Below, one piece after another: positions 4,656 through 33,790 of a DNA stretch of 59,493 nt. This DNA comes from an uncultured Bacteroidota bacterium. Its GTDB lineage: Bacteria > Bacteroidota > Bacteroidia > AKYH767-A > 2013-40CM-41-45. The DNA lies in NCBI GenBank assembly GCA_937871435.1, contig CALMQM010000091.1, forward strand, positions 1-59,493, read 5' to 3'. The notes beneath the pieces are model-generated. The model made no database searches. It was not told the DNA's origin and saw only the letters and a program-made list of their open reading frames with translations. Positions within the stretch are counted from its first letter, which is position 1, and every line of letters begins with the position of its first letter. Position numbers and translations under genes: made by a program.

Positions 4656-4853
4656 ATGCCAAAAACTAAGACTCACTCCGGTGCCAAAAAACGCTTCAAG
4701 CTGACTGGCACAGGAAAGATCAAGAGAAAGCATGCATTTAAGAGCCACATTCTTACCAAGAAGACAACCAAGCAAAAGCGTAATCTTACACATGCTGATT
4801 TGGTTTCTTCATCGGATGAGTTCCGGGTTTCTAAAATGCTGGTGATGAAATAA
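4656..4853 (+). CDS. rpmI: 50S ribosomal protein L35
   Basis: This small basic 65-residue protein of the large ribosomal subunit begins [20 protein letters not shown], the conserved L35 signature, and keeps the internal [12 protein letters not shown] segment. Length is normal for the family. It lies between infC and rplT in the usual order and is probably co-transcribed with them. Confidence 0.97.
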
Positions 4854-4955
4854 CACTTGCTTTCCTGATCTGAATTTCAAAAACAATTATTAACCCGACA
4901 ACAAGCATCAAGTTTCTCCCTGAAAAGAGAACGCTTCAGTCAAAACCAAATCAAA

Positions 4956-5300
4956 ATGCCACGTTCAGTCAATGCCGTCGCGTCACGTGCACGGAGAAAA
5001 AAAATGTTCAAACTCGCCAAAGGTTATTGGGGAGCGAGAGGTAACGTATTAACCGTTGCCAAGAATACAGTCGAAAAAGGATTAGGTTATGCCTATCGTG
5101 ATCGTCGTACCAAAAAGCGTAATTTCCGTTCCTTGTGGATCATGCGTATTAACGCGGGTGCACGCGAACATGGAATGAGTTATTCCGAACTCATGGGAAA
5201 AATCCATGCAAAAGGATTGGATCTCAACCGTAAGACACTTGCCGATCTGGCTCTGAATCATCCACAGGCATTCAAGGCCGTAATTGATTCTGTTAAGTAA
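4956..5300 (+). CDS. rplT: 50S ribosomal protein L20
   Basis: L20 binds 23S rRNA early in 50S assembly. The 114 residues begin [23 protein letters not shown] and contain [16 protein letters not shown] and [16 protein letters not shown], all standard for the family. It is the last gene of the operon. In other bacteria L20 represses translation of rpmI-rplT; no leader structure that would show this could be recognised here. A terminator follows 36 bases after the stop. Confidence 0.98.
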
Positions 5301-5336
5301 CTACGCCATAGTTTTTAGTGAATCAATGACAAGAAG

Positions 5337-5365
5337 AGGGAATCGAAAGGTTCCCTTTCTTTTTT
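5337..5365 (+). terminator. rho-independent terminator of the thrS-rplT operon
   Basis: Stem AGGGAA (5337-5342) pairs with TTCCCT (5351-5356) across an 8-base loop, followed by a T-rich run to 5365. Confidence 0.75.
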
Positions 5366-5485
5366 GGTATAGGTTTAAGATTTTTTATTTTTCAAATCAC
5401 CACCTTACCTTTACACGTATCCACCATCTCTGTTTTTCTGTCACCAGACTTTCTGAAAAAAATCACATCAATAAAAATCCACGTT

Positions 5486-6208
5486 GTGCAAAGCAGATTA
5501 AAAATCATTTATCATAAGTTAACTCAAAAATCACCTGTTATATCAGGAGATTTATTTATCAAAAGACTTTCTTTCGCCAATGCGGGTATGATGCATCCCG
5601 GGAATGTTCATTGTTTTGAATATGTGGCAAAACATTCCAATTCTGATAGCCCTATTCTCGAAATAGGATCTTTTTGTGGATTATCGACCAATGCAATCAA
5701 TCATTTTTATAGTTTGAATGGAAAGAAAAACAAATTTTTTACGAGTGATAAATGGGAATTTGAATCTACAGAAGATCAGGAAACTGTGAATCAATCCGGT
5801 ATTACAGGTGCTGATTACAGCAATTTTGTAAAGGAATCATACAAACGAAATGTCCGCTTTTTCAGCAAAGAAAATTTGCCTTATACCATTGAAGCTTTTT
5901 CGGATGAATTCTTTCAATTGTGGGATGAAAAGAAACGAGTTCAAGATGTATTTGACAGAACTGTAGACCTTGGTGGGAAATTCTCCTTTGTATTTATTGA
6001 TGGAAATCACACATACGAATACGCAAAAAGAGATTTTGAAAATACCGATAAACATCTCGAGGTAGGAGGATATATTCTTTTCGATGACAGTTCGGTCTTC
6101 TCCCCATTCGGATGCGCTTTATTGATGAAAGAAATCGAAAAGATGGATCGTTATGAAGTGGTGATTAAAAATCCAAACTATTTGTTTAGAAAAAAAGCTG
6201 ACAAATAA
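5486..6208 (+). CDS. class I SAM-dependent methyltransferase (Methyltransf_24-like)
   Basis: The 240-residue protein has a Rossmann methyltransferase core: motif I ILEIGSFCGLST near residue 56 for SAM binding and the FVFIDGNHTYEYAKRDFEN segment near residue 170, which is the Methyltransf_24 hallmark. The MMHPGNVHCFEY lead is typical of homologues in bacterial glycan clusters, but this copy stands alone. The start is the GTG at 5486; a later ATG at 5588 would remove conserved N-terminal residues. There is no clear Shine-Dalgarno. A near-match to the -7 element (TACCTTTA at 5406) lies upstream. The substrate is unknown. Confidence 0.8.
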   Translation: MQSRLKIIYHKLTQKSPVISGDLFIKRLSFANAGMMHPGNVHCFEYVAKHSNSDSPILEIGSFCGLSTNAINHFYSLNGKKNKFFTSDKWEFESTEDQETVNQSGITGADYSNFVKESYKRNVRFFSKENLPYTIEAFSDEFFQLWDEKKRVQDVFDRTVDLGGKFSFVFIDGNHTYEYAKRDFENTDKHLEVGGYILFDDSSVFSPFGCALLMKEIEKMDRYEVVIKNPNYLFRKKADK

Positions 6209-6237
6209 TTCCTGCCGTCCACTTTGATCGGAAACTA

Positions 6238-7263
6238 TTATTTTTTAACCGTCAACAACCGGATTCTTTCTGTTGCAAGTTTATATGTCGGGAAAATACC
6301 TAAAGCTTTGCGGTAGTCGGCAATTGCTTTTTCGTTCTCTCCTTCAAACTCATAAGCAAGCCCTCTGTTGTAATACGCTTCAGCATAGTTTTCGTTTACA
6401 GAAATCGCTTTGCTGAGCCAGTCGATTGCTGTAGGATAGTCTTTTCTGAATACCAGCGCAATGTATCCGATGTTGAAATAGGCGTCTGAATATTTCGGAT
6501 CAATCTTTAACAGAACTTTATAGTCACCAATGGCTTTATTAAACTCTCCGATATTCTGAAGAAAAAGTCCCCGATCATACAATGCTTCTGTACTCGTTGG
6601 ACGCAAGCTGAGTGCATTGCTGTAATACTGGAGTGCGATTTTGTTCCGCATGGCTGCATACAGATTTCCAAGCTGAATGTGCGCATCATAATTTTCCGGA
6701 TCGAGATCCACAACTGTTTCAAAACTGGATAAAGCTTTGGCCGTATCACCTGATTCCTTGTGGACAAATCCTTTTAAAAAATATGCTTTCACTTTCTTAG
6801 GATCAATTTTCAATGCAGCGTTCGCATAGGAGATCGATTTTGCATAACCTTTAATGTACAGATAGATTTCCGCTAATTTGAGATTTGCCTCAAGATTTTG
6901 CGGATCAACTTTGAGGCATCTTTCATATGATTCAATAGATTTTCTGACTTGAAGACCACGGAAACTCACATCTGCAAGGAGCAATAAATACTCTACCTTA
7001 TTTGAATCAAGAAAAGCAGCCTTACTGGCATCTGAGAAAGCAGCCTGAATTAAATTCTTCTCAAGGTTGATTTTAGCCCGATGAAAATACGCTTCGGCAT
7101 CTCCGGGATTCCTGAGAATTTTTTGATTCAACTGATAGAAAACATCATCCTGATTCAGAGAGTCAGATGACTTGTTTGTTTCTGCTTGTTCATTTTTACC
7201 TGAATTGCAAGAAATCACCATCATCAAACTCCAAACACAATAGATCAATCGGATTAGTTTCAT
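6238..7263 (-). CDS. TPR-repeat lipoprotein
   Basis: The 341-residue protein starts at the ATG ending at 7263. This gives a lipoprotein signal (MKLIRLIYCVWSLMMVISC) with Cys19 as the lipid-modified residue; longer starts at 7281 or 7293 would place extra residues before it and overlap the recA terminator. From about residue 45 it is a run of roughly eight tetratricopeptide repeats with the usual W/Y-x-x-L/G-x-A/G spacing (for example AYFNIGYIALV and AYYNRGLAYEFEGENEKAIADY). Such proteins are scaffolds for protein contacts, here probably in the periplasm or at the outer membrane. The partner is unknown. It lies downstream of recA on the same strand behind a terminator. Confidence 0.85.
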   Translation of the reverse strand: MKLIRLIYCVWSLMMVISCNSGKNEQAETNKSSDSLNQDDVFYQLNQKILRNPGDAEAYFHRAKINLEKNLIQAAFSDASKAAFLDSNKVEYLLLLADVSFRGLQVRKSIESYERCLKVDPQNLEANLKLAEIYLYIKGYAKSISYANAALKIDPKKVKAYFLKGFVHKESGDTAKALSSFETVVDLDPENYDAHIQLGNLYAAMRNKIALQYYSNALSLRPTSTEALYDRGLFLQNIGEFNKAIGDYKVLLKIDPKYSDAYFNIGYIALVFRKDYPTAIDWLSKAISVNENYAEAYYNRGLAYEFEGENEKAIADYRKALGIFPTYKLATERIRLLTVKK

Positions 7264-15342: not shown

Positions 15343-17757
15343 ATGGGAAGAAAGAAAATATCGAACCTTAATGAAGAGTTTGATCTGAAATTATTCGCCA
15401 TCATTGCGCGAAAGAATTTCTATCTCGTATTCATTAATATCACCATTTTTCTAACACTCGCTTATTTGTATCTCAGGTATACACATCCTGTGTACCAATC
15501 CGATGCTGTTTTAAAAATAGGAACGCTAAACAATGCAAATGCAGTTTTGAATTTGCAGAATTCCCAGTTCATGGATGCGATGGGGAATGGCAATCAATTG
15601 GCAGGCGACATCGAATTGTTGAGATCAAGGGTGATGATCGCCCGGGTAATTTCCAAAATGGATATGGGTGTGAGTTGCTTTTCGCATGGAAATGTTTTGG
15701 ACAATGAAATGTACAAGAGCTCCCCATTTCATTTGGAATACCAGATGCAGGATTCTTCATTACTTGATCAGAGATTCTATATTTATTTTGATTCTGAGAA
15801 ACAATTTCATCTCAGTTATGTTTGGGGGAATCAGGAAGTTTCAAGGACTGGAAAAACAGGTGAATGGGCAGCTTATCCAGGGCTCAGATTAAAAGTTAGT
15901 ATCAGCAATTATCCTGCGATTTTACGCCAACAGAAAAAGATCAGCGACAACCCTTTTTATTTTATTATCAACAACCCGGAATCACTTGTAGAAAAGTATT
16001 TTCAATATGTGTTTGTTCTTATTTTAAATCCAAATGCACAAACGATAAAAATTTCTTTTAAAGATTATAACGCGAATAAAGCGGCTGATTTCGTGAATAC
16101 CATGTCTCAGGAATACAATGAGTATGATAAAGAACGCAAATCTGAAGGCTCAAATAATTCTCTTGGATTTATCAATGAGACTATTCAGAATATCGACAAT
16201 GAATTAAAAATTTCAGAAATCTCCCTGGAGCTTTTCAAGAAAGAAAACAAAATCATTGATCCATCAAAAAATGCAGATGATGTATTGAATCATATCCATA
16301 CGATGATCGATCAGAAAGTAGCCATTCAATTAGAGATGGCTGTTCTGGATAGGCTGGAAAAAGACATTGTAAATAATGACAAACTGGAAAATCTGCTACC
16401 ATTACTGGCAGGAACTTATACAGATGCGTTGATACAGAATTTGGTTGAAAAGATTCAACAATTGGAAGACAGGAAATCCACTCTTGGTTTCATGGCAACC
16501 AAAGACAATGCTGCGATGGTTTCGCTTGAAAATGACATCGAAAATCAACGAAAAATTCTGATCAAGTCAATGGCCAATGCGAAATTGTCATTAGATGAGA
16601 GAATTAAATCCATTGATGATCGAATCGCTGAATTTGAACTCGGATTTATGAAACTTCCCGGCAAGGAAGCAGAGATGAGTCGTTTACAAAGAACGTACGA
16701 AGTCAATCAGAAATTTTATCAGTTGTTGTTGGAAAAGAAAGTTGAATTTTCAATCACCAAAGCCGGTGTAGTTACCAATAATATTATTCTTCAAATGGGG
16801 AAGAGTCCGACAGAGCCCCTCTCCCCTAACAGAAAATTAATCATCGCCGGAAGCATGTTGCTTGGATTCATTATCAGCTTCCTTATTATTTTCGTCCGTT
16901 ATCTTTTCTACAATGAAATCACTTCACTTGACGAGATCAACCAATATACGGATGCTGCTCTCCTCGGCATTATTCCGAAATACAAAAGTGAAATTCCGGT
17001 TTCTCAATTGCTTGTAGACAAAAATCCGAAATCTGCTATTTCAGAATCTTTCCGATCAGTAAGAACAAATCTCCAGTTCATTTCCAATGAGCCAGGATCA
17101 AAAGTTATTGCAATCACTTCTACCATTTCCGGAGAAGGAAAAACATTTGTAGCCATTAACCTTGCAGGTGTTATCGCGTTTTCGGAAAAAAGAGTAATGA
17201 TTATTGACCTTGACATGCGGAAACCAAAGATCCATCTGGGTTTCAATGTTGAAAACGTCAGAGGTATGAGTACGATTCTCATTGGAAAAGATATTCCTGA
17301 GAATTGTATTAACAAGAGTAATCTGAAAAATCTTGACTTTATCACTGCCGGTCCGATTCCTCCTAATCCATCTGAATTGATTCTGAGCACAAGGATGAAT
17401 GAACTGATAGACTATTTGAAGGAACGATACGATGTGGTGATTATCGATACGCCACCGGTTGGAATTGTGACAGATGGCGTGGAGATAATTCAGAATGCTG
17501 ACTATCCGATTTATATTATCCGTGCACAATATTCAAAACGAATGTTTATTCAAAATCTGAATAAACTGATTGATGAAAACAAAATCAAAATGGCTGTCGT
17601 CCTGAATGGTGTGGAGATGTCGAGATTTAAATACGGCTATGGATATGGTTACGGTTACGGATATGGATATGGCTATGGATATGGATATTATGATGATGAA
17701 GCCAAAAAGCACATGACAAGATGGGATCGACTGAAGCTCCGTTTTCGGGGGAAATAA
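15343..17757 (+). CDS. Wzc-like polysaccharide co-polymerase and tyrosine autokinase
   Basis: This 804-residue inner-membrane protein controls polymerisation and export of polysaccharide. It has a Wzz-type N-terminal region with a transmembrane helix (about 30-48), a long periplasmic coiled-coil region (about 250-470) and a second membrane helix near 505-525. The cytoplasmic BY-kinase domain has Walker A SGEGKT around residues 596-601, a Walker A' type VMIIDLDMRKPK near 620 and VVIIDTPPVGIVTDG near 700. The C-terminus carries the tyrosine cluster used for trans-autophosphorylation, here an unusual run of nine Tyr-Gly repeats (residues 764-783). The partner export lipoprotein is immediately upstream. 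No low-molecular-weight phosphatase (Wzb) is seen. Confidence 0.94.
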   Translation: MGRKKISNLNEEFDLKLFAIIARKNFYLVFINITIFLTLAYLYLRYTHPVYQSDAVLKIGTLNNANAVLNLQNSQFMDAMGNGNQLAGDIELLRSRVMIARVISKMDMGVSCFSHGNVLDNEMYKSSPFHLEYQMQDSSLLDQRFYIYFDSEKQFHLSYVWGNQEVSRTGKTGEWAAYPGLRLKVSISNYPAILRQQKKISDNPFYFIINNPESLVEKYFQYVFVLILNPNAQTIKISFKDYNANKAADFVNTMSQEYNEYDKERKSEGSNNSLGFINETIQNIDNELKISEISLELFKKENKIIDPSKNADDVLNHIHTMIDQKVAIQLEMAVLDRLEKDIVNNDKLENLLPLLAGTYTDALIQNLVEKIQQLEDRKSTLGFMATKDNAAMVSLENDIENQRKILIKSMANAKLSLDERIKSIDDRIAEFELGFMKLPGKEAEMSRLQRTYEVNQKFYQLLLEKKVEFSITKAGVVTNNIILQMGKSPTEPLSPNRKLIIAGSMLLGFIISFLIIFVRYLFYNEITSLDEINQYTDAALLGIIPKYKSEIPVSQLLVDKNPKSAISESFRSVRTNLQFISNEPGSKVIAITSTISGEGKTFVAINLAGVIAFSEKRVMIIDLDMRKPKIHLGFNVENVRGMSTILIGKDIPENCINKSNLKNLDFITAGPIPPNPSELILSTRMNELIDYLKERYDVVIIDTPPVGIVTDGVEIIQNADYPIYIIRAQYSKRMFIQNLNKLIDENKIKMAVVLNGVEMSRFKYGYGYGYGYGYGYGYGYGYYDDEAKKHMTRWDRLKLRFRGK
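17632..17691 (+). repeat. hexanucleotide-based Tyr-Gly repeat in the Wzc-like kinase
   Basis: Sixty bases of imperfect TAYGGN hexamers encode 11 tyrosines and 9 glycines. Third-position variation (GGC, GGA, GGT; TAC, TAT) shows the run is not a freshly slipped tract. Confidence 0.95.
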
Positions 17758-22411: not shown

Positions 22412-23362
22412 ATGGCTGCACCTATTGTTTTATTTGTTTATAACAGACCACAACATACATTAAAAACACTCGATGCCTTACAATCGAACATTGATTCGGA
22501 TCAAGCGGAAGTAATAGTCTATGCTGATGGTCCAAAATCCGGTGCAACAGATGACGTTCTGGAAAAGATTGAAGAAACACGAAAACTATTCAGCAGAAAA
22601 TTCCGGTTTAAAAATTTAACCTTAATCGCAAGCGACAAAAATACAGGGTGCGCGAATTCTATTATTCACGGAATCAGTGAGACACTACAAGCGTATTCGA
22701 AAGCAATTATTTTGGAAGACGACATTCATACGTCACCTTATTTTTTGAGGTATTGCAATCTTGCTCTCGATAAATATGAACTGAGAGAAGATGTGATGGC
22801 AATATCCGGATATGTGTATCCAATAAGAAAAAAAATGAAGCACTCTTATTTTGTTCGTACCGGAGCCGCATGGGGATGGGCTACATGGGCAAGAGCATGG
22901 AAACAATTCAGTACCGAACCAGTTCACTTATTGGATTCTATTGAGCAAACAGGAAAAAAATCTATTGAACAAGCAGGAAAAAAAAGAGAGTTTAATTTTA
23001 ACAATAGTTACGATTTTTATAAGATGCTGGAACAACAGCGGGATGGTGAAATTGATGCATGGTGTATCCGTTGGTATGCTTCTATTTTTTTAAATAACGG
23101 TTTGTGTTTGTATCCTGCCGAAACGCTGACAATTAATATTGGCCAGGACGGTTCAGGTACTCATTATACCGAAAAAAACAATGACCCTAATTTCATTCAG
23201 CAAATTCTGAATATGTCGGAAAATCCGGATAACTATTTATTTCCTGATCTAATTACCGAAAGTGAAGAAGGTAGAAAACAATTTGAAACTTACTTTCAGG
23301 AAATATCAAGTGGTGGTCGAATGCAACGGTTAAAAAATCTTGTTAAAAAACTAATACACTGA
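22412..23362 (+). CDS. GT-A fold glycosyltransferase (GNT-I/HlpA-like)
   Basis: The 316-residue protein begins APIVLFVYNRPQHTLKTLDAL and contains VIVYADGPKSG, DKNTGCANSIIHGI, the acidic ILEDDI motif (metal and donor binding) and WGWATWARAWKQF. All are typical of the GNT-I-like family often labelled sugar transferase or HlpA-like. It probably transfers a sugar from a nucleotide donor; GDP-fucose is plausible from context only. It carries an in-frame 24-base duplication at 22937-22984 that repeats SIEQ(T/A)GKK. Its TGA stop overlaps the ATG of the kinase gene by one base, linking the fucose genes to the phosphoramidate cassette. Confidence 0.82.
   Translation: MAAPIVLFVYNRPQHTLKTLDALQSNIDSDQAEVIVYADGPKSGATDDVLEKIEETRKLFSRKFRFKNLTLIASDKNTGCANSIIHGISETLQAYSKAIILEDDIHTSPYFLRYCNLALDKYELREDVMAISGYVYPIRKKMKHSYFVRTGAAWGWATWARAWKQFSTEPVHLLDSIEQTGKKSIEQAGKKREFNFNNSYDFYKMLEQQRDGEIDAWCIRWYASIFLNNGLCLYPAETLTINIGQDGSGTHYTEKNNDPNFIQQILNMSENPDNYLFPDLITESEEGRKQFETYFQEISSGGRMQRLKNLVKKLIH
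22937..22984 (+). repeat. 24-base in-frame tandem duplication
   Basis: Two 24-base units differ at only two positions (22945/22969 and 22949/22973 region) and encode SIEQTGKK then SIEQAGKK. This is a recent-looking insertion in a surface loop of the glycosyltransferase. Confidence 0.9.
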
Positions 23363-23871
23363 TGGCAAAATTAATCTGGATAACTGGACTTGCCGGATCA
23401 GGAAAAACAACTTTAGCCAGGGAAGTATATACACAATTGAAAAAAGTATATTCGAATGTTGTCTTGATTGACGGAGATCATCTGAGAGAAATATTTGGTG
23501 GTGAGCATGGATATAGTACAGAAGATCGATTGGAAAATGCACGACGGTTAAGCAGACTTTGCCATTTTCTTATCAGTGAAAATATTCATGTTGTGTGTTC
23601 AACAATGTCATTGTACAAGGAAATTCATGACTACAACCGAAAAAACTTTAAGGATTATTTCGATATTTTTCTTGATATACCAATGGAAGTACTGATTAAG
23701 CGTGATAAGAAACAATTGTATTCAAACGCTCTGGCTGGAAAAACAGAAAATGTCGTTGGCATTAATCAGGAATATGATAAACCAGAATCTCCTAAAATGA
23801 CTCTTCATGAATTTCAATTATCACAGTTGCCAAAACTTGCTTCAGAAATCATACAGACAGTTCACTTATAA
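23362..23871 (+). CDS. CysC-like kinase, probable cytidine diphosphoramidate kinase (Cj1415-type)
   Basis: The 169-residue P-loop kinase resembles adenylyl-sulfate kinase: Walker A GLAGSGKTT (residues 9-17) and the DGD substrate motif (37-39) are intact. The middle segment (CSTMSLYKEIHDYNR) differs from the usual APS kinase sequence. No sulfate adenylyltransferase is nearby; instead the next genes are the glutamine kinase, hydrolase and cytidylyltransferase of the C. jejuni phosphoramidate pathway. There the homologue Cj1415 phosphorylates the ribose 3'-OH of CDP-amidate, giving 3'-phospho-CDP-amidate. I infer the same reaction. It starts at ATG 23362, overlapping the upstream stop by one base. 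True APS kinase is the alternative. Confidence 0.8.
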   Translation: MAKLIWITGLAGSGKTTLAREVYTQLKKVYSNVVLIDGDHLREIFGGEHGYSTEDRLENARRLSRLCHFLISENIHVVCSTMSLYKEIHDYNRKNFKDYFDIFLDIPMEVLIKRDKKQLYSNALAGKTENVVGINQEYDKPESPKMTLHEFQLSQLPKLASEIIQTVHL

Positions 23872-23883
23872 TTTTAGTCACCA

Positions 23884-24648
23884 ATGAAACAAGGGGATTT
23901 TACCCAGCTCGCCGAAAGCTATAAACACCGCACAGGATATTCAGAAGACATTCTCCGATATATTTCGCAGCATGCTGAACGTTCATTCAAGGAACTTAAA
24001 GTGGCGGACGTAGGAGCCGGCACAGGGAAATTAACAGAAAATCTTGCTGATCTGGGCTATGCCATCACAGCTGTAGAACCCAACGATGCAATGCGCGAAG
24101 AGGGAAAACGGTATACCGCAGGAAAGAATGTTACCTGGCAAAAAGGAAGCGGAGAAGAAACAGGGCTGGCAACAAATTCCATGAACTGGTTATTGATGGG
24201 CTCATCCTTTCATTGGGTAGACTTTATGAAGGGTTTGAAAGAGTTCAATCGTGTACTGATGAATGGCGGATTTTTTACAGCGATCTGGAACCCAAGAAAC
24301 CTTGAAGCAAGTGAATTGCACATGTCGATTGAAAATCAAATCCGAAAAATGGTACCAGATTTAAAACGGGTGTCTTCCGGATCAGGTGAATTTACCAAAA
24401 CACTTAGCAGGGAACTTGCTGCAAGTGGAATATTCACTGAAGTGATTTATATGGAACAGCAATATGACGTGGTCATGAGTGTTGACAGGTATATGGGCGC
24501 CTGGCATTCCACAAATGATATACAGGCACAAGCAGGACCCGATACCTGGAAAAAAATTATTTCCATGATAGAATTTGAAATAAAAAATCTTCCGGAGATA
24601 ATTGTTCCTTACAAATCCAGAGCATGGACTGGCAAAAGTATTAAGTAA
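23884..24648 (+). CDS. class I SAM methyltransferase of the phosphoramidate cassette
   Basis: The 254-residue protein has a Rossmann methyltransferase fold with motif I ADVGAGTGK (residues 41-49), the acidic AVEPNDAMREEG near 63 and the FHWVDFMKGLKEFNRVL segment near 110. In C. jejuni, methyltransferases Cj1419 and Cj1420 accompany the phosphoramidate genes and are assigned to O-methylation of the phosphoramidate; this gene sits in the matching place, between the kinase and glutamine kinase genes. Only one such gene is present here, against two in C. jejuni. Whether it acts on the phosphoramidate or the sugar cannot be read from sequence. Confidence 0.78.
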   Translation: MKQGDFTQLAESYKHRTGYSEDILRYISQHAERSFKELKVADVGAGTGKLTENLADLGYAITAVEPNDAMREEGKRYTAGKNVTWQKGSGEETGLATNSMNWLLMGSSFHWVDFMKGLKEFNRVLMNGGFFTAIWNPRNLEASELHMSIENQIRKMVPDLKRVSSGSGEFTKTLSRELAASGIFTEVIYMEQQYDVVMSVDRYMGAWHSTNDIQAQAGPDTWKKIISMIEFEIKNLPEIIVPYKSRAWTGKSIK

Positions 24649-24651
24649 ATC

Positions 24652-27018
24652 ATGATACAATTAGGTACCAAAGCTGAATCATTGCGAAAGCTGCAGGGAA
24701 AACTTACTACTGCTCTGATTCTGGATACCTATGTTTTTACTACTGCCGCGTGGAAATCATCTCCTGATATTGTTTGTGAAAATATCCGGCAATATTTCGC
24801 TAATGTATCAAAGGTGATTGTGCGCAGCTCTGCTTCAACAGAAGATACCGCAGAGAGTTCAAATGCCGGACATTTTGTGTCTGTAGGAAATATTTCACTT
24901 CAATCAAATGAAGAACTACAAAATGCAATAGCCAGAGTAGTTGAATCCTATGATTCAAATTCCGGAAACGAACAAGTTCTTGTTCAGGAATACTTGCAGG
25001 ATATCCGGATGAGCGGAGTCGCATTTACCAGGGACCTTGAAACAAATAACGATTATTATGTCATCAATTACGATGATGAGAATAATTCTTCCGATACTGT
25101 TACCGGAGGTCATGGTTCCGGATTGAAGACATTCTATCGATGGAAACATTTTGATGGAAAGGTGACTGATCCGTCTATGGAAAGGATCATTCGTTTATTA
25201 CAGGAGCTTGAATCGCTAACAGGAATCGACGGACTGGATGTAGAGTTTGCGTTTGACAAGAAAGACAGGTTGTATTTACTCCAGGTTCGGCCGATTGCAG
25301 ATAAAATAAATAAACAATTGATCCCGGGTGATTATTCAAATTACCTGTTAAAGATTTACAAGAAGATTCAAAAACTAAATCTTCCGCATCCGAATTTATA
25401 TGGATCAAAGACGGTGTTGGGAATCATGCCTGATTGGAACCCGGCAGAGATTATCGGAACAAAACCCGGGATGCTCGCTTTGTCTATCTACAAAGAACTG
25501 ATCACGGATTCTATCTGGGCTTATCAACGAAATAATTACGGATACAAAAATCTCCGTAGTTTTCCATTGCTCATTTCTCTATTCGGTCAGCCATATATAG
25601 ATGTCAGAGTAAGTTTCAATTCATTTATTCCTGCAGCTATTCCGGATTCACTTTCACATAAGATCGCGAATTATTACCTGAAGCAGCTTGAACTTTTCCC
25701 TTCTGATCACGATAAAATAGAATTCAATATCGTTTTTTCCTGTTATAATCTGGATCTTGAAAAACGACTTGAAGTATTATCCCGCAACGGATTTTCGATT
25801 GAAGAAATTAGTTTATTCCGAAACGCGTTACTGGATCTGACCAGACAAATTATTCATCCTGAAAAAGGAATTTACAAAAAGGATATTGAAAAGATAAACC
25901 TTCTGGATAACAGGCGAAAGGCAATCCTGGAAAGTGAAATGAGTTTGGTAGATAAAATCTACTGGCTTATTGAAGAATGTAAACGGTATGGAACTCTACC
26001 TTTTGCAGGATTAGCAAGAGCTGCGTTTATTGGAATGCAATTCTTAAAATCATTTGTCAATCTCGGTTTGTTCACTCCGCATGAGTACGATCTGTTTCTG
26101 AGTGGATTAAATACAGTATCAAAACAACTAAAAACGGACCATGAAAATCTTCAAAACGGAACTCTCAAGAAAGTTGATTTTCTCCTAAAATACGGACATT
26201 TACGTCCCGGGACTTACGATATACTTTCTGAAAGATACGATACTGCTTTTGATAAATACTTCAGTGATCATCAGAAAGAACAGAATTCTACAGGAAGCAA
26301 TGATATCGGGATTTATCAAATTTCTCCTGAAATAAAAACGAGGCTGGACGAATCCCTTGATAAAAGTAAGATAGGTGTAAATGCAACACAATTGCTGCAT
26401 TACATTCAATCTGCAATTGAAGCAAGAGAGTATTCTAAGTTTGTCTTTACAAAATGTCTTAGTGATATTCTGGAATTAATAGCTGAATTTGGAAAACAAC
26501 TTTCAATTTCCAGGCAAGATCTGGCACACCTTGATATTACTGAAATAATGCACTTATATGCTGCAGTCGATGAACGTGACGTCAAGGACATTCTGGAAAT
26601 CAATATTCGTCAAAACAAAGTATTGCATGAACTATTGCTTAATATCAAACTACCCTATCTCATAACTAAACCGGAAGATGTGTATCAGTTTTATTCCGGA
26701 AATGATGAACCGAATTATATCACACATAAAAATGTCATAGCTGCTGTAGAAACACAGGATCATTTGTTTACCAGTTCACTGGAAGGAAAGATTGTGTGTG
26801 TTACCAGTGCAGATCCCGGGTTTGACTGGTTATTTTCAAAAAATATTGCAGGCTTAATTACTTTGTATGGAGGAGTAAATTCACACATGGCTATACGCTG
26901 CGCAGAATTGCGACTACCAGCCATCATCGGCTGCGGAGAAGTAAATTATAAGTTATGGAGTAATGCGAATACACTTGAAATTGATTGCGGAAACAAATTG
27001 GTTAAAGTAATCAACTGA
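24652..27018 (+). CDS. PEP synthase-like L-glutamine kinase (Cj1418-type)
   Basis: The 788-residue protein joins an N-terminal PPDK/PEP-synthase ATP-grasp domain to a C-terminal swivelling phosphohistidine domain. The ATP-grasp part covers about residues 1-220 (VIVRSSASTEDTAESSNAG, VLVQEYLQ, VEFAFDKKDRLYLLQVRPI). The C-terminal domain has GGVNSHMAIRCAEL with the phospho-accepting H745. There is no PEP/pyruvate-binding TIM barrel. This domain set matches C. jejuni Cj1418, which uses ATP to phosphorylate the amide of L-glutamine, the first step in phosphoramidate synthesis. The neighbours on the 3' side are the next two enzymes of that pathway, which makes the assignment strong. It begins 3 bases after the methyltransferase gene. 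Confidence 0.88.
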   Translation: MIQLGTKAESLRKLQGKLTTALILDTYVFTTAAWKSSPDIVCENIRQYFANVSKVIVRSSASTEDTAESSNAGHFVSVGNISLQSNEELQNAIARVVESYDSNSGNEQVLVQEYLQDIRMSGVAFTRDLETNNDYYVINYDDENNSSDTVTGGHGSGLKTFYRWKHFDGKVTDPSMERIIRLLQELESLTGIDGLDVEFAFDKKDRLYLLQVRPIADKINKQLIPGDYSNYLLKIYKKIQKLNLPHPNLYGSKTVLGIMPDWNPAEIIGTKPGMLALSIYKELITDSIWAYQRNNYGYKNLRSFPLLISLFGQPYIDVRVSFNSFIPAAIPDSLSHKIANYYLKQLELFPSDHDKIEFNIVFSCYNLDLEKRLEVLSRNGFSIEEISLFRNALLDLTRQIIHPEKGIYKKDIEKINLLDNRRKAILESEMSLVDKIYWLIEECKRYGTLPFAGLARAAFIGMQFLKSFVNLGLFTPHEYDLFLSGLNTVSKQLKTDHENLQNGTLKKVDFLLKYGHLRPGTYDILSERYDTAFDKYFSDHQKEQNSTGSNDIGIYQISPEIKTRLDESLDKSKIGVNATQLLHYIQSAIEAREYSKFVFTKCLSDILELIAEFGKQLSISRQDLAHLDITEIMHLYAAVDERDVKDILEINIRQNKVLHELLLNIKLPYLITKPEDVYQFYSGNDEPNYITHKNVIAAVETQDHLFTSSLEGKIVCVTSADPGFDWLFSKNIAGLITLYGGVNSHMAIRCAELRLPAIIGCGEVNYKLWSNANTLEIDCGNKLVKVIN

Positions 27019-27025
27019 TGTAACG

Positions 27026-27649
27026 ATGAAAAAAATTCTGATTACTCCGCGTATAAATGTATTTGAAAAGTACAATGAAGTACATACCAGCCTGGATTTG
27101 CAATGGGGAACATTCGCGAATGCATGTGGATTGATTTTGATTCCGGTTATTTATACAATTCCTGTCAGCCATTATCTCAGGGAAATAGAACCGGATGGAA
27201 TTCTACTTACCGGTGGAAATGATTTACTTTCCATCGATCCACAACCCATCCATGCAATACGTGAAAATTACGAACTCGAACTCATCAATGAAGCTAAGCG
27301 ATGGAATATTCCAATGATTGGTGTGTGTAAGGGTGCACAGCTCCTCGCCTATCACTTCGGTTCTTCCGTGGAAAAAATAGAAGGACATGTTATTCCTGAA
27401 CACGAAGTGAAATCAACAACTCAGATTTCTGATATGTGGAGTAAAATTCAGAAAGTGAATTCCTACCATAATTTTGGAATTAAAAATCTGTTGGCGCCAC
27501 TTCAGAGTAAGCTTCAGGCAAATGATTCAAGTAGCGAGGCATTTCAACATGAGAGCCTGAATATAACAGGTTTGTTATGGCATCCTGAACGCTATCATGA
27601 GCCAAGAAATGAAGACATAACTATTTTTAAATCGATCTACAATTCCTGA
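27026..27649 (+). CDS. class I glutamine amidotransferase-like hydrolase, probable gamma-glutamyl-CDP-amidate hydrolase (Cj1417-type)
   Basis: The 207-residue protein is a peptidase C26/class I GATase domain without a synthetase partner. The nucleophile elbow is IGVCKGAQ with Cys101, and the His/Glu pair is in LLWHPERYHE (H186, E188); the oxyanion segment is LLTGGNDLL. Ordinary relatives cleave gamma-glutamyl bonds. In C. jejuni the homologue Cj1417 hydrolyses gamma-glutamyl-CDP-amidate to glutamate and CDP-amidate. Position between the glutamine kinase (7 bases) and the cytidylyltransferase (4 bases) genes supports that role. A gamma-glutamyl-GABA hydrolase (PuuD type) is the non-contextual alternative. 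Confidence 0.86.
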   Translation: MKKILITPRINVFEKYNEVHTSLDLQWGTFANACGLILIPVIYTIPVSHYLREIEPDGILLTGGNDLLSIDPQPIHAIRENYELELINEAKRWNIPMIGVCKGAQLLAYHFGSSVEKIEGHVIPEHEVKSTTQISDMWSKIQKVNSYHNFGIKNLLAPLQSKLQANDSSSEAFQHESLNITGLLWHPERYHEPRNEDITIFKSIYNS

Positions 27650-27653
27650 TTCA

Positions 27654-28412
27654 ATGAGAGGACTTATTCTTGCAGCAGGGCGCGGTTCCAGGCTTGGAGC
27701 GCAAACTGCTGACAAACCGAAGTGTATGACACTGCTTGGTGGAAAGACATTGTTACAATGGACTCTCGAATGCATGCATGCTTCAGGCATCCGGCAAATT
27801 GCATTGGTAAGAGGATATCTGGGAAATACTCTTACTGAAAATGGCTTGGTATTTTTTGAAAATGAAAGATGGGCTGAAACAAATATGGTTCATTCACTCA
27901 TTTGCGCATCAGAGTGGATGGAGTCTGAAACAACACTGCTCAGCTATTCTGATATTGTGTATCCTGCACAAACGGTTGACATCATTGCTGCTGCAGAAGG
28001 TGATATCGTTGTCAGCTACAACACAGAATGGCTGGATATATGGAAAGCCCGTTTTGAGGATCCGTTTTCTGATGCTGAAACATTTATACTTGATGGAAAA
28101 GGAATTCTTAAAGAGATCGGTAAAAAGCCTACACATTTGGATCAGGTGCAAGGTCAATATATGGGATTGATCAAAATTTCTTCAACGGGATGGAAACAAA
28201 TTTCTTCCTATCTGAAAAGTTTAGGTCAGGAGAAAACTGATAAACTGGATATGACTTCATTGCTCAACGGATTGATAAACTCAGGAGTAGAGATTCATAC
28301 AGTTCCGGTTTCAGGAAAGTGGTATGAAATTGACAATGAAAATGATCTCAAGGTTTGTCAGCAATTGATTGATGAAGGTAAAAGCTGGATTTCTTCCGGC
28401 ATGAAGGCATGA
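27654..28412 (+). CDS. nucleotidyltransferase, probable CTP:phosphoglutamine cytidylyltransferase (Cj1416-type)
   Basis: The 252-residue protein has the sugar-nucleotidyltransferase fold with LAAGRGSRLG (residues 6-15) and Lys21/Pro22 in the KPK segment; LLSYSDIVYP holds a metal-binding Asp and WYEIDNENDLK lies near the C-terminus. Alone it would be called a phosphocholine or sugar nucleotidyltransferase. Next to the glutamine kinase and hydrolase genes it matches Cj1416, which joins CTP and L-glutamine phosphate to give gamma-glutamyl-CDP-amidate and pyrophosphate. It overlaps the next gene by 4 bases (ATGA). Confidence 0.86.
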   Translation: MRGLILAAGRGSRLGAQTADKPKCMTLLGGKTLLQWTLECMHASGIRQIALVRGYLGNTLTENGLVFFENERWAETNMVHSLICASEWMESETTLLSYSDIVYPAQTVDIIAAAEGDIVVSYNTEWLDIWKARFEDPFSDAETFILDGKGILKEIGKKPTHLDQVQGQYMGLIKISSTGWKQISSYLKSLGQEKTDKLDMTSLLNGLINSGVEIHTVPVSGKWYEIDNENDLKVCQQLIDEGKSWISSGMKA

Positions 28413-29623
28413 ACCAGAACGATTTCAGCGCTTTTAAACAGAGAATGGAAAACAATGAGATTAAAATTGTTTTTCAAATGGTAGTAGGTCGAGGCGGATC
28501 CTTATTGTTACACAGCTTACTCGACAATCATCCTTCTATTCTTGCTTATCCGGGTATTCTAAATTTTCATACAGACATTTGGCCTGCAATTTCATCTGAT
28601 CCAACAAATGCTGAAGCTGTTTTGGCAAAGAAGATGGGAGAATGGATTGCTGAAATGTCTCCTTATAATGTTGGAAAAAATTTAGGAGAAACATTTTCAG
28701 ATGTCATTGAAATTGATTGTCGGAAAATTGCACATGAAACAGGAAAATTGTTAGGTTCAAATTTCAACGACAAAAAAAATCTTTTCATTGCATTACAGTT
28801 TTCTATCGCAGATTATTTTGGGATCAGTTTGAATGACAAGCGCGTTGTTTATTGTCATGAACATTCATCTACGTATGATGTTTCACTTGTGCAAAGTATT
28901 TTGATGGCATGGCCTCAGGCACTTTTTCTTGCCATTCTCAGAGATCCAAGATCAAATTATATCGCTTTGTTGAATTGGGAAAAAAAGAGAACAGAATTGA
29001 ATATTCATACTCAGGAAAGACATCGTTACATTCAGAATATGTACGCGGATATGTGTTATTTCTGGTATACACGACTGTTGGAAGTTGCCAGTTTGCATCC
29101 TGATAATTTTCTTCTCATTCGACTGGAAGATTTGCAAAAAGATAAAACACAAATGTTGCACAAATTGTGTCATGAATTAAAAATAGAATTCAATGATAGC
29201 TTGTTGCAGACTACTTTTCTGGGGAAAACATGGCATGGAGATAATTTTTCTCCCAAAGGAAGCGGTATCAGAAATTCCGCTGACCCCAAAAAATGGAAAA
29301 CGGAGTTATCGTTTTTGAGAAAATCTATTTTTGAAATAGTTCTGAAAAGAGAAATTGAAATTCTTGAATATCCATTCTTATACAGGAAAAATTTTTTTGG
29401 TAAATTATTTACATGGTTATTTTTTCCAATCTGGTTTTACAAAGATTGGGAGCACATTTTTAAAAAGGGCTATTATACTTTTATGGCTTCAGAAGGTTTT
29501 GGAAAAATACGGGCATTTCTATTTCAGGTTAAAACAGCAATTCTTGCAGACAGACGACTTTTTCATTTTATCCGTAAAGGCCCGGAATTCAAAAGTTCAA
29601 AAAAGCTCAAATTTCTGTCATAA
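28409..29623 (+). CDS. sulfotransferase-fold protein, candidate phosphoramidate transferase
   Basis: The 404-residue protein has the PAPS-type 5'-phosphosulfate loop VVGRGGSLLLHSLLDNHP (G27-S31 core) and the 3'-phosphate-binding segment LRDPRSNYIALLNW (R178, S182). These are the two nucleotide-contact signatures of sulfotransferases. It has no signal peptide; the tail from about residue 320 is rich in aromatic residues and may sit at the membrane (LFTWLFFPIWFY). The start overlaps the cytidylyltransferase gene by 4 bases, so it belongs to the phosphoramidate cassette. The proposed donor, 3'-phospho-CDP-amidate, has the same 3'-phosphate and 5'-leaving-group layout as PAPS. I infer that it transfers phosphoramidate to sugar; ordinary sulfation is the alternative. 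Confidence 0.72.
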   Translation: MNQNDFSAFKQRMENNEIKIVFQMVVGRGGSLLLHSLLDNHPSILAYPGILNFHTDIWPAISSDPTNAEAVLAKKMGEWIAEMSPYNVGKNLGETFSDVIEIDCRKIAHETGKLLGSNFNDKKNLFIALQFSIADYFGISLNDKRVVYCHEHSSTYDVSLVQSILMAWPQALFLAILRDPRSNYIALLNWEKKRTELNIHTQERHRYIQNMYADMCYFWYTRLLEVASLHPDNFLLIRLEDLQKDKTQMLHKLCHELKIEFNDSLLQTTFLGKTWHGDNFSPKGSGIRNSADPKKWKTELSFLRKSIFEIVLKREIEILEYPFLYRKNFFGKLFTWLFFPIWFYKDWEHIFKKGYYTFMASEGFGKIRAFLFQVKTAILADRRLFHFIRKGPEFKSSKKLKFLS

Positions 29624-29719: not shown

Positions 29720-32700
29720 ATGATCAAAAAACTTACACTTGCCTTTGCGGCATTCCTTATTACTCTTGGTGTAAAAGGACAATGTCCGGTGCCTGGATTC
29801 ACCATAGGCAGCGCGGGATGTGCAAACCAATCCGTTCCATTCACCAACACGAGTACTGGTGCAACACAATACGAATGGGATTTTTGCGGAGGAGATTTTC
29901 GTGCAACACCCAATCCCATCAATTTTTCTGTTTCATTCCTGAATCCTTTGGGAATTACTCCGGTATTTGATGGAAGCAATTGGTTTGCATTTGTGAATAA
30001 CGACGGAGACGGGTCCATTGTGCGACTTGATTTTGGTAATTCATTGATGAATTCTCCTACCTCAACTAACATGGGGAATATCGGAGGAGAACTTACAAGT
30101 GGCGGAGGTCGTTCCAATATGGAAATCATTCAGGAGAATGGAAACTGGTACGGCCTGCTTACCTGTCAGGGAAATGCGAAATTGTTGATTTACTCTTTTG
30201 GAAATAGTTTATCGAATACTCCCACAGTTTCATCCTCTGTGTTTGTGCAATTAAGCGGAACCGCTTTCTTTCTCAAAGCTGTTCAGGATAATGGCAACTT
30301 GTATTTATTTGTTGCCAATACTGGTGCCACTGTTGAACTTTTCAATTTTGGAAGTTCAGTTACAAATACTCCGACTACATCAACGATATCCGTCCCGGGA
30401 GCATCTTCCCTCCTATGTATTGATATTATAAAAGACTGTGATCAATGGTATGGATTTGCCAGCAGTTATGCGGCATCTGCCATCTTTCGTCTCGACTTTG
30501 GAACATCGTTGACCAATACACCCACAATCAATACAATCAATCCCAATCCAAATTCGGTTTCCTTCCCACAAAACGTAAAAGTTGGTTTTGATGGTTTGAA
30601 TTGGGGAGCATTTGTACAGAATGCCGGAGGTGGAATTTTATACATGGAGCTGGGTACATCCATCACCAATCTCAATCCTCCATCATCAGCACTCACATTA
30701 CCGGGCTTTGGATCATCCGGATTATTTTTATCTCTTGTAAAAGATGCTTCAACTTTTTACTTGCTCACCAGCAATTACGGAGGAAGCAGTTGTGGTATCA
30801 TTGAATTTGCTAATGATTGTGGAGCGAATCCTGCTGTGAGTACCACCACAAACGCGTCTTGTTCCTGGGCCACAGGTGGTGTGAAATATATTTCATTGAA
30901 AGCGACAGATGCATCGGGTAATATAAAATATTACAGTGATTCAATTTCAATCAACTTTGCTCCTCAAAATGCATTCACCACAACATCAAAATGTCTGGGA
31001 GACATCACTCAGTTTACGGATTCTTCCCAACTTCTTCAGGGCAGCATTACTTCTTGGAACTGGGATTTTGGAGATTTACAATCATCCAATCTTCAAAACC
31101 CGGTGAATCAATATGCTTCCGTTGGTTCCTACACGGTTACATTAGTGACAACAGCAAGTTCAGGATGTACGGATACTTTGCAGCAACAAATTTACATTGG
31201 TCCTAAGCCGGTTGTTTCATTTTCATCCGGGACTGCTTGTGCCGGAACAGTTATTCCATTCCTGGATCAGTCAACTATTTCCGGTGGAACTATTACAGCC
31301 TGGACATGGTTTTTCGGGAATGGCGATTCGTCTAATGTTCAGAATCCGGATTATGTTTATCCAACAGGAGGAAATTATTCTGTTACACTCACTGCAACAA
31401 GTGATAGCGGCTGCGCAGATACCTGGAGCAATAATTTGCAGATAAATTATCAACCGGAAGCCGCGTTCATTGAAACCAATACCTGCGTTGGACAATCGGT
31501 TCAATTTACAGACGCATCCAATTCTCAGAGCCCGATCCAGAGTTATGCATGGGATTTCGGAGACGGAAATACAGATGCAAGTTCGAGTCCACAACACACC
31601 TATCCAAATGTTGTCGCGAATTACAATGTACAGTTGATCATCACCTCAGCGAATGGTTGCATTGATACACTGATTAAGGATGTCAGGATCAACACTGTGC
31701 CTGTTGCGAATTTTACTACAACAGTTGCAAATGCCTGTCAGAATAACGCAGTGCAGTTCCAGGATCTATCAAGTGTTTCTGGCGATACTTTGTGTAAATG
31801 GTATTGGGACTTTGGTGATAACTCCTATGATTCTGTTCCAAATCCTGTACACGCTTTTAGTACAGCAGGACCAAATATTGTCAGGTTGGTAGTGTATTCA
31901 CCTTCGAGTTGTCCGAGTGCAATGTTCCAACAAACAATCGATATTGTAGAGAGTCCCCAAGCTTCCTTCTCATATACCGATGTATGCTTAGGTGGCACAA
32001 CTCAATTCAACAATCTGAGTATTGTTCCCACAGGAAGCACGATTGATAGTGTTCTCTGGGATTTTGGAACAGGAGACGTTTCCGGTGATCCAAACGTAAC
32101 ATTTTATACATACAATGCGGCCGGTTCTTATCCTGTTGCACTCACTGTCATTTCAAATTTTGGTTGTGTAGGAAGTGATACTGTGAATGTTCCGGTCCGC
32201 GCACTTCCAGTCTCCCAATTCACTTTTACTAATCCGTGTTCGGGTCAGGCAGTGCAGTTTACGAATCAGAGTAGCGCGGATTCACTGTCTACAATTGCAA
32301 ATTATACCTGGAATTTTGGCGACTTTGGAAGTCCGAACAATATCAGCAACCAACAGGATCCTGCGCACACCTACTCGAATGCAAATACTTACACAGTTTT
32401 CCTGATTACAACAACAAATTTTGGATGTAAGGATACATTGGTGGATACATTGCAAATCTTCCCTTCCACTACTTCACAATTTGCCTATTCTCCAACCTGT
32501 GATGGAGACCTGATGGAATTTTTTAATCCCGGTTCACCATTAGACAGCGCTTATCTCTGGAATTTTGGTGACAACCAAACCAATCAGGTGCCCGAACCTG
32601 CGCATTTTTATGCGTTCCCGGGAACTTACACTGTGACATTGACCGTGTATGCATTTTCAGGATGTGCTACAAGTTCAAGCAAGCAAGTGACAGTGAGTCC

Positions 32701-33790
32701 GATTCCTGTTGCGGATTTTCCGGTACAGCCTATCTGTGTCGGAAGTAATTATCAATTCCAGGATGCCAGCAGTATCAACAATGGAAGCATCGTTCATTGG
32801 GACTGGAGTATTGCAGGTTTGAATTCACTTGATACTATTCAGAACCCCGCTTATACATTTGCTGATACAGGTACGTATGCTGTTACATTGATAATCGCAT
32901 CTGATATTGGTTGCACGAATAGCGTAACAAAAACAGTTCATGTGTACCCTCTTCCAATTGCAAATTTCAGTTTTGATCCACAATTCGGAAATCCGCCATT
33001 GGATGTTCAGTTTACAGATTTCTCCACCGGTGGATCAGGCTATCAATGGAATTTCGGAGACGGAAGTTCACTCAGTAATCTTCATGAACCTTCACATATT
33101 TATCAGGATACAGGAATTTTCACTATTCGTCAATATGTAACTACTGCATATGGCTGTCTTGATTCTATTGATAAAAGTATTTATGTAATCAGACCGGTAC
33201 TTGACATTTCAATTACCGGGGACTCATCCTATGTCGATGGAAATTATTTTTATGTCGTTGCAAGGATCGCAAACCTTGGCACAAGAGAAATTACCAAGGT
33301 GAATATGGAAGCCAGACTGGAAGATGGAACAACAATTAAAGAAAAATACGAGCAGTTGATTCCAAATGGTCCTGCAGGAATTCAAAGCTATTTGTTTAAA
33401 GCAGCGTTTTTGATTTCAGAAAATTCCAACTTTGATTATTATTGTATTAAAGCATCTGATCCGAACGATGAAACAGATAACATTCCATCGAACAATGAAA
33501 AATGCTTCAACCGTACTTCCAATCTGGCATTTGTAAACCCTTACCCGAATCCATTTATCAATGATTTGACAATTCGTCTTATCCTTCCTTTTGAAGAAGT
33601 GGTAATGATTGATTTGTTGGATCACACCGGAAAAGAAATCATGAACCTGTACAACGGTTCAGCAAAGAAAGGATTGCTTGAAGTAACCCGCGATTTATCT
33701 GATTTGTCTGATGGAGTTTATTCCATACGCACACAATTCCGCGATGAAATTCAGACCAGACGGATTGTAAAACTCTCAAGAACCAGATAA
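29720..33790 (+). CDS. large PKD-repeat surface protein with T9SS sorting domain
   Basis: The 1356-residue protein has an N-terminal signal peptide (MIKKLTLAFAAFLITLGVKG). Residues about 60-370 hold five copies of an F-G-x-S-x-x-N-x-P-T motif about 50-56 residues apart, with W-x-x-F-V-x-N strands between them, resembling a beta-propeller. From about 430 to 1150 come nine PKD-type repeats marked by W-x-F-G-D or close variants, coding positions near 31061, 31303, 31549, 31806, 32058, 32310, 32558, 32799 and 33048. A CARDB-like domain follows, and then a type A T9SS C-terminal sorting domain (NPYPNPFINDLTIRL to the end). It is probably exported through T9SS and anchored at the cell surface, for adhesion or binding. 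The ligand is unknown. A strong terminator follows. Confidence 0.9.
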   Translation: MIKKLTLAFAAFLITLGVKGQCPVPGFTIGSAGCANQSVPFTNTSTGATQYEWDFCGGDFRATPNPINFSVSFLNPLGITPVFDGSNWFAFVNNDGDGSIVRLDFGNSLMNSPTSTNMGNIGGELTSGGGRSNMEIIQENGNWYGLLTCQGNAKLLIYSFGNSLSNTPTVSSSVFVQLSGTAFFLKAVQDNGNLYLFVANTGATVELFNFGSSVTNTPTTSTISVPGASSLLCIDIIKDCDQWYGFASSYAASAIFRLDFGTSLTNTPTINTINPNPNSVSFPQNVKVGFDGLNWGAFVQNAGGGILYMELGTSITNLNPPSSALTLPGFGSSGLFLSLVKDASTFYLLTSNYGGSSCGIIEFANDCGANPAVSTTTNASCSWATGGVKYISLKATDASGNIKYYSDSISINFAPQNAFTTTSKCLGDITQFTDSSQLLQGSITSWNWDFGDLQSSNLQNPVNQYASVGSYTVTLVTTASSGCTDTLQQQIYIGPKPVVSFSSGTACAGTVIPFLDQSTISGGTITAWTWFFGNGDSSNVQNPDYVYPTGGNYSVTLTATSDSGCADTWSNNLQINYQPEAAFIETNTCVGQSVQFTDASNSQSPIQSYAWDFGDGNTDASSSPQHTYPNVVANYNVQLIITSANGCIDTLIKDVRINTVPVANFTTTVANACQNNAVQFQDLSSVSGDTLCKWYWDFGDNSYDSVPNPVHAFSTAGPNIVRLVVYSPSSCPSAMFQQTIDIVESPQASFSYTDVCLGGTTQFNNLSIVPTGSTIDSVLWDFGTGDVSGDPNVTFYTYNAAGSYPVALTVISNFGCVGSDTVNVPVRALPVSQFTFTNPCSGQAVQFTNQSSADSLSTIANYTWNFGDFGSPNNISNQQDPAHTYSNANTYTVFLITTTNFGCKDTLVDTLQIFPSTTSQFAYSPTCDGDLMEFFNPGSPLDSAYLWNFGDNQTNQVPEPAHFYAFPGTYTVTLTVYAFSGCATSSSKQVTVSPIPVADFPVQPICVGSNYQFQDASSINNGSIVHWDWSIAGLNSLDTIQNPAYTFADTGTYAVTLIIASDIGCTNSVTKTVHVYPLPIANFSFDPQFGNPPLDVQFTDFSTGGSGYQWNFGDGSSLSNLHEPSHIYQDTGIFTIRQYVTTAYGCLDSIDKSIYVIRPVLDISITGDSSYVDGNYFYVVARIANLGTREITKVNMEARLEDGTTIKEKYEQLIPNGPAGIQSYLFKAAFLISENSNFDYYCIKASDPNDETDNIPSNNEKCFNRTSNLAFVNPYPNPFINDLTIRLILPFEEVVMIDLLDHTGKEIMNLYNGSAKKGLLEVTRDLSDLSDGVYSIRTQFRDEIQTRRIVKLSRTR

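Follow-up and report, generated by a model that had tools for sequence, protein, structure and literature searches.

The phosphorus–nitrogen (P–N) tag of Campylobacter has a role in phage recognition and serum resistance. In C. jejuni, the proteins Cj1415 to Cj1418 produce cytidine diphosphate (CDP)-phosphoramidate 3'-phosphate, which is the likely donor of the phosphoramidate group; Cj1421 and Cj1422 are also required, and knockouts of cj1419 and cj1420 gave a capsule without apparent change (PMC11800397). The transfer step is biochemically undescribed in the accessible literature (PMC12409886). The present analysis concerns an operon within a polysaccharide gene cluster on a contig of 59,493 nucleotides from an uncultured Bacteroidota bacterium (GenBank assembly GCA_937871435.1, contig CALMQM010000091.1; this whole stretch of DNA is called the window), in which counterparts of five genes of the O-methyl phosphoramidate (MeOPN) set of C. 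jejuni are followed by a gene for a protein with a predicted sulfotransferase fold.

A 2019 review described the phosphoramidate group as known only from Campylobacter (PMC6429109), and a 2022 review called the glutamine kinase C. jejuni-specific (PMC9561416). Phosphoramidate without the methyl group is cited for the lipopolysaccharide (LPS) of Xanthomonas and Shewanella in a 2014 paper (PMC3907429); by that published description, the LPS of Xanthomonas campestris and Shewanella is comparable to the glycan predicted here in bearing a P–N bond on a non-Campylobacter surface glycan. A 2025 paper predicts the MeOPN pathway in Borgs, and that cluster, which was set beside the window by its description, is likewise an in silico report from outside Campylobacter and includes a phosphoglutamine cytidylyltransferase, but it belongs to an archaeal extrachromosomal element (PMC12660748).

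We estimate at about 0.72 the probability that the operon in the window makes an activated phosphoramidate and puts this group on a surface polysaccharide. After the glutamine kinase (step 1), the cytidylyltransferase would join N-phosphoglutamine to cytidine monophosphate (CMP) derived from cytidine triphosphate (step 2), the GATase-fold hydrolase would hydrolyse off glutamate to leave CDP-amidate (step 3), and the CysC-type kinase would phosphorylate the 3'-hydroxyl to yield 3'-phospho-CDP-amidate (step 4), a look-alike of the sulfate donor 3'-phosphoadenosine 5'-phosphosulfate (PAPS). The sulfotransferase-fold protein would then move the phosphoramidyl group from 3'-phospho-CDP-amidate to a sugar hydroxyl with the release of 3'-phospho-CMP (step 5), and the methyltransferase would add the O-methyl group (step 6). 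What the sequences show is the operon with its orthology to the Campylobacter set, its broad distribution and the lack of PAPS genes in relatives, along with a predicted sulfotransferase fold for the sixth gene product; the reactions, the function of that product as transferase and the decorated glycan are inferred. Steps 1 to 4, which are assigned by orthology to characterised Campylobacter enzymes, are highly probable, and the production of 3'-phospho-CDP-amidate by the operon is very likely, though not proven. Step 5 is a new proposal drawn from the fold, the operon context and the genomes lacking the PAPS route, and is moderately probable; for step 6 the balance is only slightly favourable.

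Comparison with the Campylobacter Gene Set

The reference consisted of 12 Campylobacterales loci with a Cj1417 equivalog over the curated cut-off, which are not proven to be C. jejuni. In tblastn comparisons with these loci, the glutamine kinase of the window shares 42–45% identity over nearly its full length, the hydrolase 34–41%, the cytidylyltransferase 32–38%, and the CysC-type kinase 39–44% where it was found. An earlier note on this DNA had proposed the same chemistry as in C. jejuni, which is supported at the sequence level by five orthologue pairs at 32–52% identity in nearly the same order.

The gene order in loci L140, L141 and L145 is transferase, first methyltransferase (MT1), second methyltransferase (MT2), glutamine kinase, hydrolase, cytidylyltransferase and CysC, corresponding to Cj1421 to Cj1415; L141 has one additional transferase-family gene ahead of CysC. 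The window has counterparts of the glutamine kinase, cytidylyltransferase, hydrolase, CDP-amidate kinase and Cj1420-type methyltransferase, and keeps the order methyltransferase–kinase–hydrolase–cytidylyltransferase. It differs from the C. jejuni set in that the CysC gene comes first instead of last, one methyltransferase is present instead of two, and a sulfotransferase-fold protein is encoded where C. jejuni has DUF2972 transferases.

The five pathway open reading frames (ORFs) extend from 23362 to 28412 on the + strand with gaps of 12, 3, 7 and 4 bases (Table 1). Their positions, strand and domains agree with the earlier description of a contiguous five-gene run spaced by 3 to 12 bases. That description stopped short at both ends, as the sulfotransferase-type sixth ORF overlaps the fifth gene by 4 bases (ATGA), and on the upstream side a glycosyltransferase-like ORF overlaps the CysC-type kinase gene by 1 base and is probably in the same operon. 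The Pfam domains follow the order APS_kinase, Methyltransf_11, PPDK_N with PEP-utilizers, GATase/Peptidase_C26, NTP_transf_3 and Sulfotransfer_3.

Table 1. Positions of the operon genes and of one catalytic codon in the window.
Feature	Position	Strand	Basis or remark
Family 2 glycosyltransferase-like gene	22412..23362	+	PF00535 9.3e-06
CysC-type kinase, predicted CDP-amidate 3'-kinase (Cj1415 counterpart)	23362..23871	+	NF004041, PF01583 1.1e-35
S-adenosylmethionine (SAM) methyltransferase, Cj1420-type	23884..24648	+	Methyltransf_11 9.4e-15; 46–52% identity to Campylobacter MT1
Glutamine kinase (Cj1418 family), 788 aa	24652..27018	+	NF004508; PPDK_N ATP-binding and C-terminal phosphohistidine domain
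Codon of phosphohistidine residue H745	26884..26886	+	Invariant among homologues
Class I GATase-fold protein, predicted gamma-glutamyl-CDP-amidate hydrolase (Cj1417 counterpart)	27026..27649	+	NF045546 best family
Nucleotidyltransferase, predicted CTP:phosphoglutamine cytidylyltransferase (Cj1416 counterpart)	27654..28412	+	PF12804 (NTP_transf_3)
Sulfotransferase-fold protein, candidate phosphoramidate transferase (functional counterpart of Cj1421/Cj1422)	28409..29623	+	PF13469 7e-11

Glutamine Kinase, Hydrolase and Cytidylyltransferase

The kinase matches the family model NF004508 over positions 3–787 with 961 bits (4e-289; cut-off 501). A Campylobacter glutamine kinase from a reference locus reaches 1173 bits on the same model, which indicates that the glutamine kinases fall within NF004508, a family still labelled hypothetical protein. 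A true phosphoenolpyruvate (PEP) synthase or rifampin phosphotransferase, set among unrelated genes, would have the PPDK_N and phosphohistidine domains in common with this protein; however, the best PEP synthase model gives 53 bits, the rifamycin phosphotransferase model 21 bits, and no PEP synthase model exceeds its cut-off, so that this identity is ruled out for practical purposes. A nearest relationship to these enzymes, which the earlier note had named as an outcome that would contradict its proposal, was thus not found.

The hydrolase has NF045546 as its best family (7.6e-45, 153 bits; next family 49 bits). Because its score is below the equivalog cut-off of 250 bits, it is not filed under that equivalog; several operon hydrolases of Campylobacterota are likewise below the cut-off, at 146–238 bits. 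When a Campylobacter hydrolase was used as the query against the window's own genome, the hydrolase gene of the operon was the best match at 100.6 bits (next 28.9), and the corresponding search with a Campylobacter cytidylyltransferase returned the nucleotidyltransferase gene at 134.6 bits (next 37). The residues G11, R13, K23, E225 and D227 of the cytidylyltransferase are kept in 78/78 homologues. The catalytic residues listed in the earlier note are all present and invariant across homologues, namely H745 of the glutamine kinase (96/96), the hydrolase triad C101/H186/E188 (75/75), and, in the CysC-type kinase, the Walker A residues G14-K15 and the motif D37-G38-D39 (GK in 57/57 and DGD in 58/58 non-gapped CysC rows). 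By orthology and catalytic triad, the 27026 gene is thus predicted to encode a Cj1417-type hydrolase.

An identity of 42–45% does not fix the substrate of the kinase, the hydrolase is under its equivalog cut-off, and at some loci the partners are fused or absent and TagF-like transferases occur. These points would suit a glutamine kinase relative acting on another amide, or a tag that stays N-phosphoglutamine or another non-phosphoramidate group. Such an outcome is nevertheless improbable, since the four partner enzymes all co-occur in the window as they do in Campylobacter, with the hydrolase triad and the kinase histidine invariant.

CysC-Type Kinase

The CysC-type kinase scores 196.7 bits on NF004041 (cut-off 127) and 127.7 bits on apsK, for adenosine 5'-phosphosulfate (APS) kinase, which is under the cut-off of 138.7. 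The corresponding values are 290.6 and 126.9 bits for a Campylobacter CysC-type kinase, and 108.9 and 268.6 bits for the true APS kinase of the window's own genome. That genome carries, on another contig, a true cysC (60% identity to E. coli), cysD (51%), cysN (50%) and a CysQ-like gene; the presence of these separate sulfate-activation genes indicates that the operon kinase is not the APS kinase of this cell. In the phylogenetic tree, the operon kinases are split from two true APS kinases with a support of 99, and the window kinase is nearest to operon copies from Campylobacterota and Bacteroidota, with a local branch support of 82–89 that is not starred. Although the kinase belongs to the same fold family as APS kinase (CysC) and has its Walker A and DGD motifs, it lies outside the apsK equivalog, shares 32% identity with its own genome's APS kinase, and groups with the kinases of glutamine-kinase operons. 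Judged from scores and tree, it groups with the Campylobacter CDP-amidate kinase family, distinct from APS kinase.

Candidate Phosphoramidate Transferase

The protein encoded by the sixth gene is predicted to have a sulfotransferase fold. Its AlphaFold2 model has a predicted local distance difference test (pLDDT) score of 78 and a predicted template modelling (pTM) score of 0.78, and the best PDB match of the model is the sulfotransferase 4gbm (Foldseek 2.1e-08; Z 18.1 over 252 residues, root mean square deviation 3.8). It is similar to PAPS-dependent sulfotransferases (PF13469, PF00685; 4gbm, 4gox, TPST1/2) in the predicted fold, in a G-rich loop near G30 and in R178, the invariant Arg of the 3'-phosphate-binding motif. 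It differs from them in that its gene is co-encoded with a nucleotide-amidate pathway, that Ala186 replaces the motif Ser carried by most relatives, that operon-type relatives occur in genomes without ATP sulfurylase, and that its predicted donor bears a phosphoramidyl group and cytidine.

The protein shares its predicted fold and its family with PAPS sulfotransferases, and PAPS is available to the cell, as its genome has CysD, CysN, CysC and a CysQ-like phosphatase. The first five genes could therefore make 3'-phospho-CDP-amidate while the sixth encodes an ordinary PAPS-dependent carbohydrate sulfotransferase, the phosphoramidate transferase being another protein. This arrangement is rather unlikely in view of the related operons. 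APS kinase, CysD and Sat were sought in 22 genomes that combine a glutamine-kinase operon with a sulfotransferase-type gene. Of these genomes, 13 had neither form of ATP sulfurylase (CysD or Sat), three weak CysD matches (E 1e-6 to 1e-4) being discounted in this count. Genomes without ATP sulfurylase include the complete genome of Anaerotruncus colihominis DSM 17241 and the isolates Fusibacter bizertensis, A. colihominis JM4-15 and Eubacterium sp. 14-2. In the four such genomes checked that are not metagenome-assembled genomes (MAGs), the operon's own gene is the only full-length APS-kinase-like gene. Since PAPS cannot be made by the known route without ATP sulfurylase, the sulfotransferase-type protein there should use another donor, and the operon's own 3'-phosphorylated nucleotide should offer one. 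In the window itself, no ORF matched the family model of DUF2972 (Cj1421/Cj1422) at E ≤ 0.1, and the sixth gene overlaps the cytidylyltransferase gene.

The proposal that the sixth gene product is the phosphoramidate transferase of this operon is weakened by several observations, to which the low score of the hydrolase has to be added for the pathway as a whole. The window genome itself is able to make PAPS, so that its protein could be an ordinary sulfotransferase, and this protein has Ala at the Ser position of the 3'-phosphate-binding motif. In the genomes that lack PAPS synthesis, the sulfotransferase-type proteins are only distantly related to the one in the window, at 13–22% identity (alignment A2), and several of these genomes are MAGs. 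Finally, the co-occurrence counts given below are uncorrected for shared ancestry.

These counts were taken at 61 well-flanked glutamine-kinase loci with 5 kb on either side, where genes were counted in six frames. The hydrolase is present at 59 loci, the CysC-type kinase at 55 and the methyltransferase at 47; sulfotransferase-type genes occur at 21 and DUF2972 genes at 7. All 28 loci with a sulfotransferase-type or DUF2972 gene have both CysC and methyltransferase and none has a TagF-like gene, which is found in 9 of the other 33 loci (Fisher p 0.003); the association between methyltransferase and transferase has a p value of 4e-5 over the 61 loci. A CysQ-like gene of the inositol-phosphatase family, which would fit recycling of 3'-phospho-CMP, is found at 12/61 loci and shows no significant association with CysC (p 0.59).

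A DUF2972-matching family precedes MT1 in Campylobacter (63 bits in L083; 18.7 bits, under the cut-off, in L149). The N-terminal half of DUF2972 contains GSHGTGR and LVRDPISIIR, which resemble the nucleotide loop and the 3'-phosphate motif of sulfotransferases. A profile comparison between the sulfotransferase-type family and DUF2972 gave a probability of 33 and a p value of 4.6e-4, the similarity being convincing on visual inspection in the RDP-motif region only, and the structure model of the L083 protein (pLDDT 42.7) was not used; the sulfotransferase-like character of DUF2972 is thus only a hint. We tentatively suggest that the sulfotransferase-fold proteins of glutamine-kinase operons in several phyla might form a class of phosphoramidyl transferases acting on 3'-phospho-CDP-amidate as a PAPS analogue, with the DUF2972 proteins Cj1421/Cj1422 as remote relatives.

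A literature search returned no paper linking phosphoramidate, sulfotransferase and capsular polysaccharide; the pathway itself is known, whereas a sulfotransferase-type transferase for it is undescribed in the literature searched. For the transfer step, the sulfotransferase-type genes provide a concrete, soluble-looking candidate enzyme together with a donor, also in PAPS-lacking gut bacteria such as Anaerotruncus.

Two further loci show unusual forms of these transferase genes. L046 encodes at 2560–6300 a protein of 1246 aa in which a family 2 glycosyltransferase is joined to a sulfotransferase-type domain, directly 5' of the CysC gene, which suggests a coupling between the addition of the sugar and the transfer of the tag. 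L083 has at 3536–5827 three short, seemingly broken DUF2972 ORFs in tandem followed by an intact one, which are decaying or phase-variable copies.

Methyltransferase

The methyltransferase shares 46–52% identity with Campylobacter MT1, at the Cj1420 position, and about 31–35% with MT2, at the Cj1419 position. In the tree, it falls in a starred set (100) of 26 rows that contains all 9 Cj1420-position rows and no Cj1419-position row, and it lies outside the Cj1419-type clade. It is also the best match in its genome when Campylobacter MT1 is the query. PolyG tracts are present in MT1 of six of the reference Campylobacterales loci and have been published for cj1420 (PMC8437040), which confirms that MT1 occupies the Cj1420 position. 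A role as the Cj1419 counterpart is ruled out by both identity and tree placement; a Cj1419-type enzyme is not known to be needed in C. jejuni. Of the alignment to Cj1415–Cj1419 suggested in the earlier note, the matches of the glutamine kinase, hydrolase, cytidylyltransferase and CysC-type kinase are therefore retained, and the methyltransferase is reassigned from Cj1419-type to Cj1420-type.

The predicted substrate of the methyltransferase is the phosphoramidate or, alternatively, the sugar. In the latter case, the final decoration would be an unmethylated phosphoramidate, as cited for Xanthomonas and Shewanella LPS in the 2014 paper (PMC3907429) and as reported for a C. jejuni variant (PMC9561416); the unchanged appearance of the capsule in the cj1419 and cj1420 knockouts is in line with this (PMC11800397). 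We consider this outcome fairly unlikely, as the methyltransferase is tied to the module of CysC and sulfotransferase-type gene (46/55 CysC loci, 28/28 transferase loci). The retention of Cj1420 in single-methyltransferase operons was at first taken to mark it as the necessary phosphoramidate methyltransferase; this argument was dropped, as other such operons keep the Cj1419-type clade. In L056 (7709–8995), one protein consists of a CysC-type kinase fused to a methyltransferase, which supports a functional link between these two enzymes.

Distribution and Locus Variants

Seven of the 395 genomes in a Bacteroidota sample, including that of the window, exceeded the NF004508 cut-off, compared with 0/14 control genomes. 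In a scan in which each species was represented by one genome, glutamine kinase relatives were encoded in at least 565 stretches, in at least a dozen phyla; the 80 stretches retained came from Campylobacterota, Bacillota, Pseudomonadota, Acidobacteriota, Spirochaetota, Bacteroidota, Nitrospirota, Planctomycetota, Verrucomicrobiota and others. Given the wide occurrence of the kinase family, glycans decorated with phosphoramidate may be frequent among bacteria and have gone unnoticed. A literature search for phosphoramidate in Bacteroidetes glycans found no report, and the earlier note was not aware of one for this phylum. Given the range of phyla that have the kinase, the pathway is not an oddity of Bacteroidota.

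Loci without CysC and methyltransferase include L032 (8016–11126), L033 and L035 (8065–11211), where the glutamine kinase is fused to an N-terminal nucleotidyltransferase-like domain. In place of CysC and methyltransferase, a TagF-like transferase is encoded in L032, L033 and also L034, where the kinase is unfused. Flagellin-like genes (L032 2726–3739 and 4291–5250, which are near-identical, and L033 171–1115) lie beside the fused glutamine kinase, hydrolase and cytidylyltransferase, and a phosphoramidate on the flagellin glycan is possible in these two related Bacteroidota-group genomes. Formyl_trans_N genes are found near the glutamine kinase in more than 12 loci, for example L032 11128–11943, L034 12288–13022 and L077 13899–14618.

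Neighbouring Genes in the Window

Directly after the operon, the next downstream gene (29720–33790) encodes a secreted protein of 1356 aa with PKD-like repeats and, at its end, a type IX secretion system (T9SS) sorting domain, which fits Bacteroidota. A Wzc-like tyrosine kinase is encoded at 15343–17757 with a long Gly-Tyr repeat as its C-terminal tail, and a similar tail is found in L034 (1128–3563).

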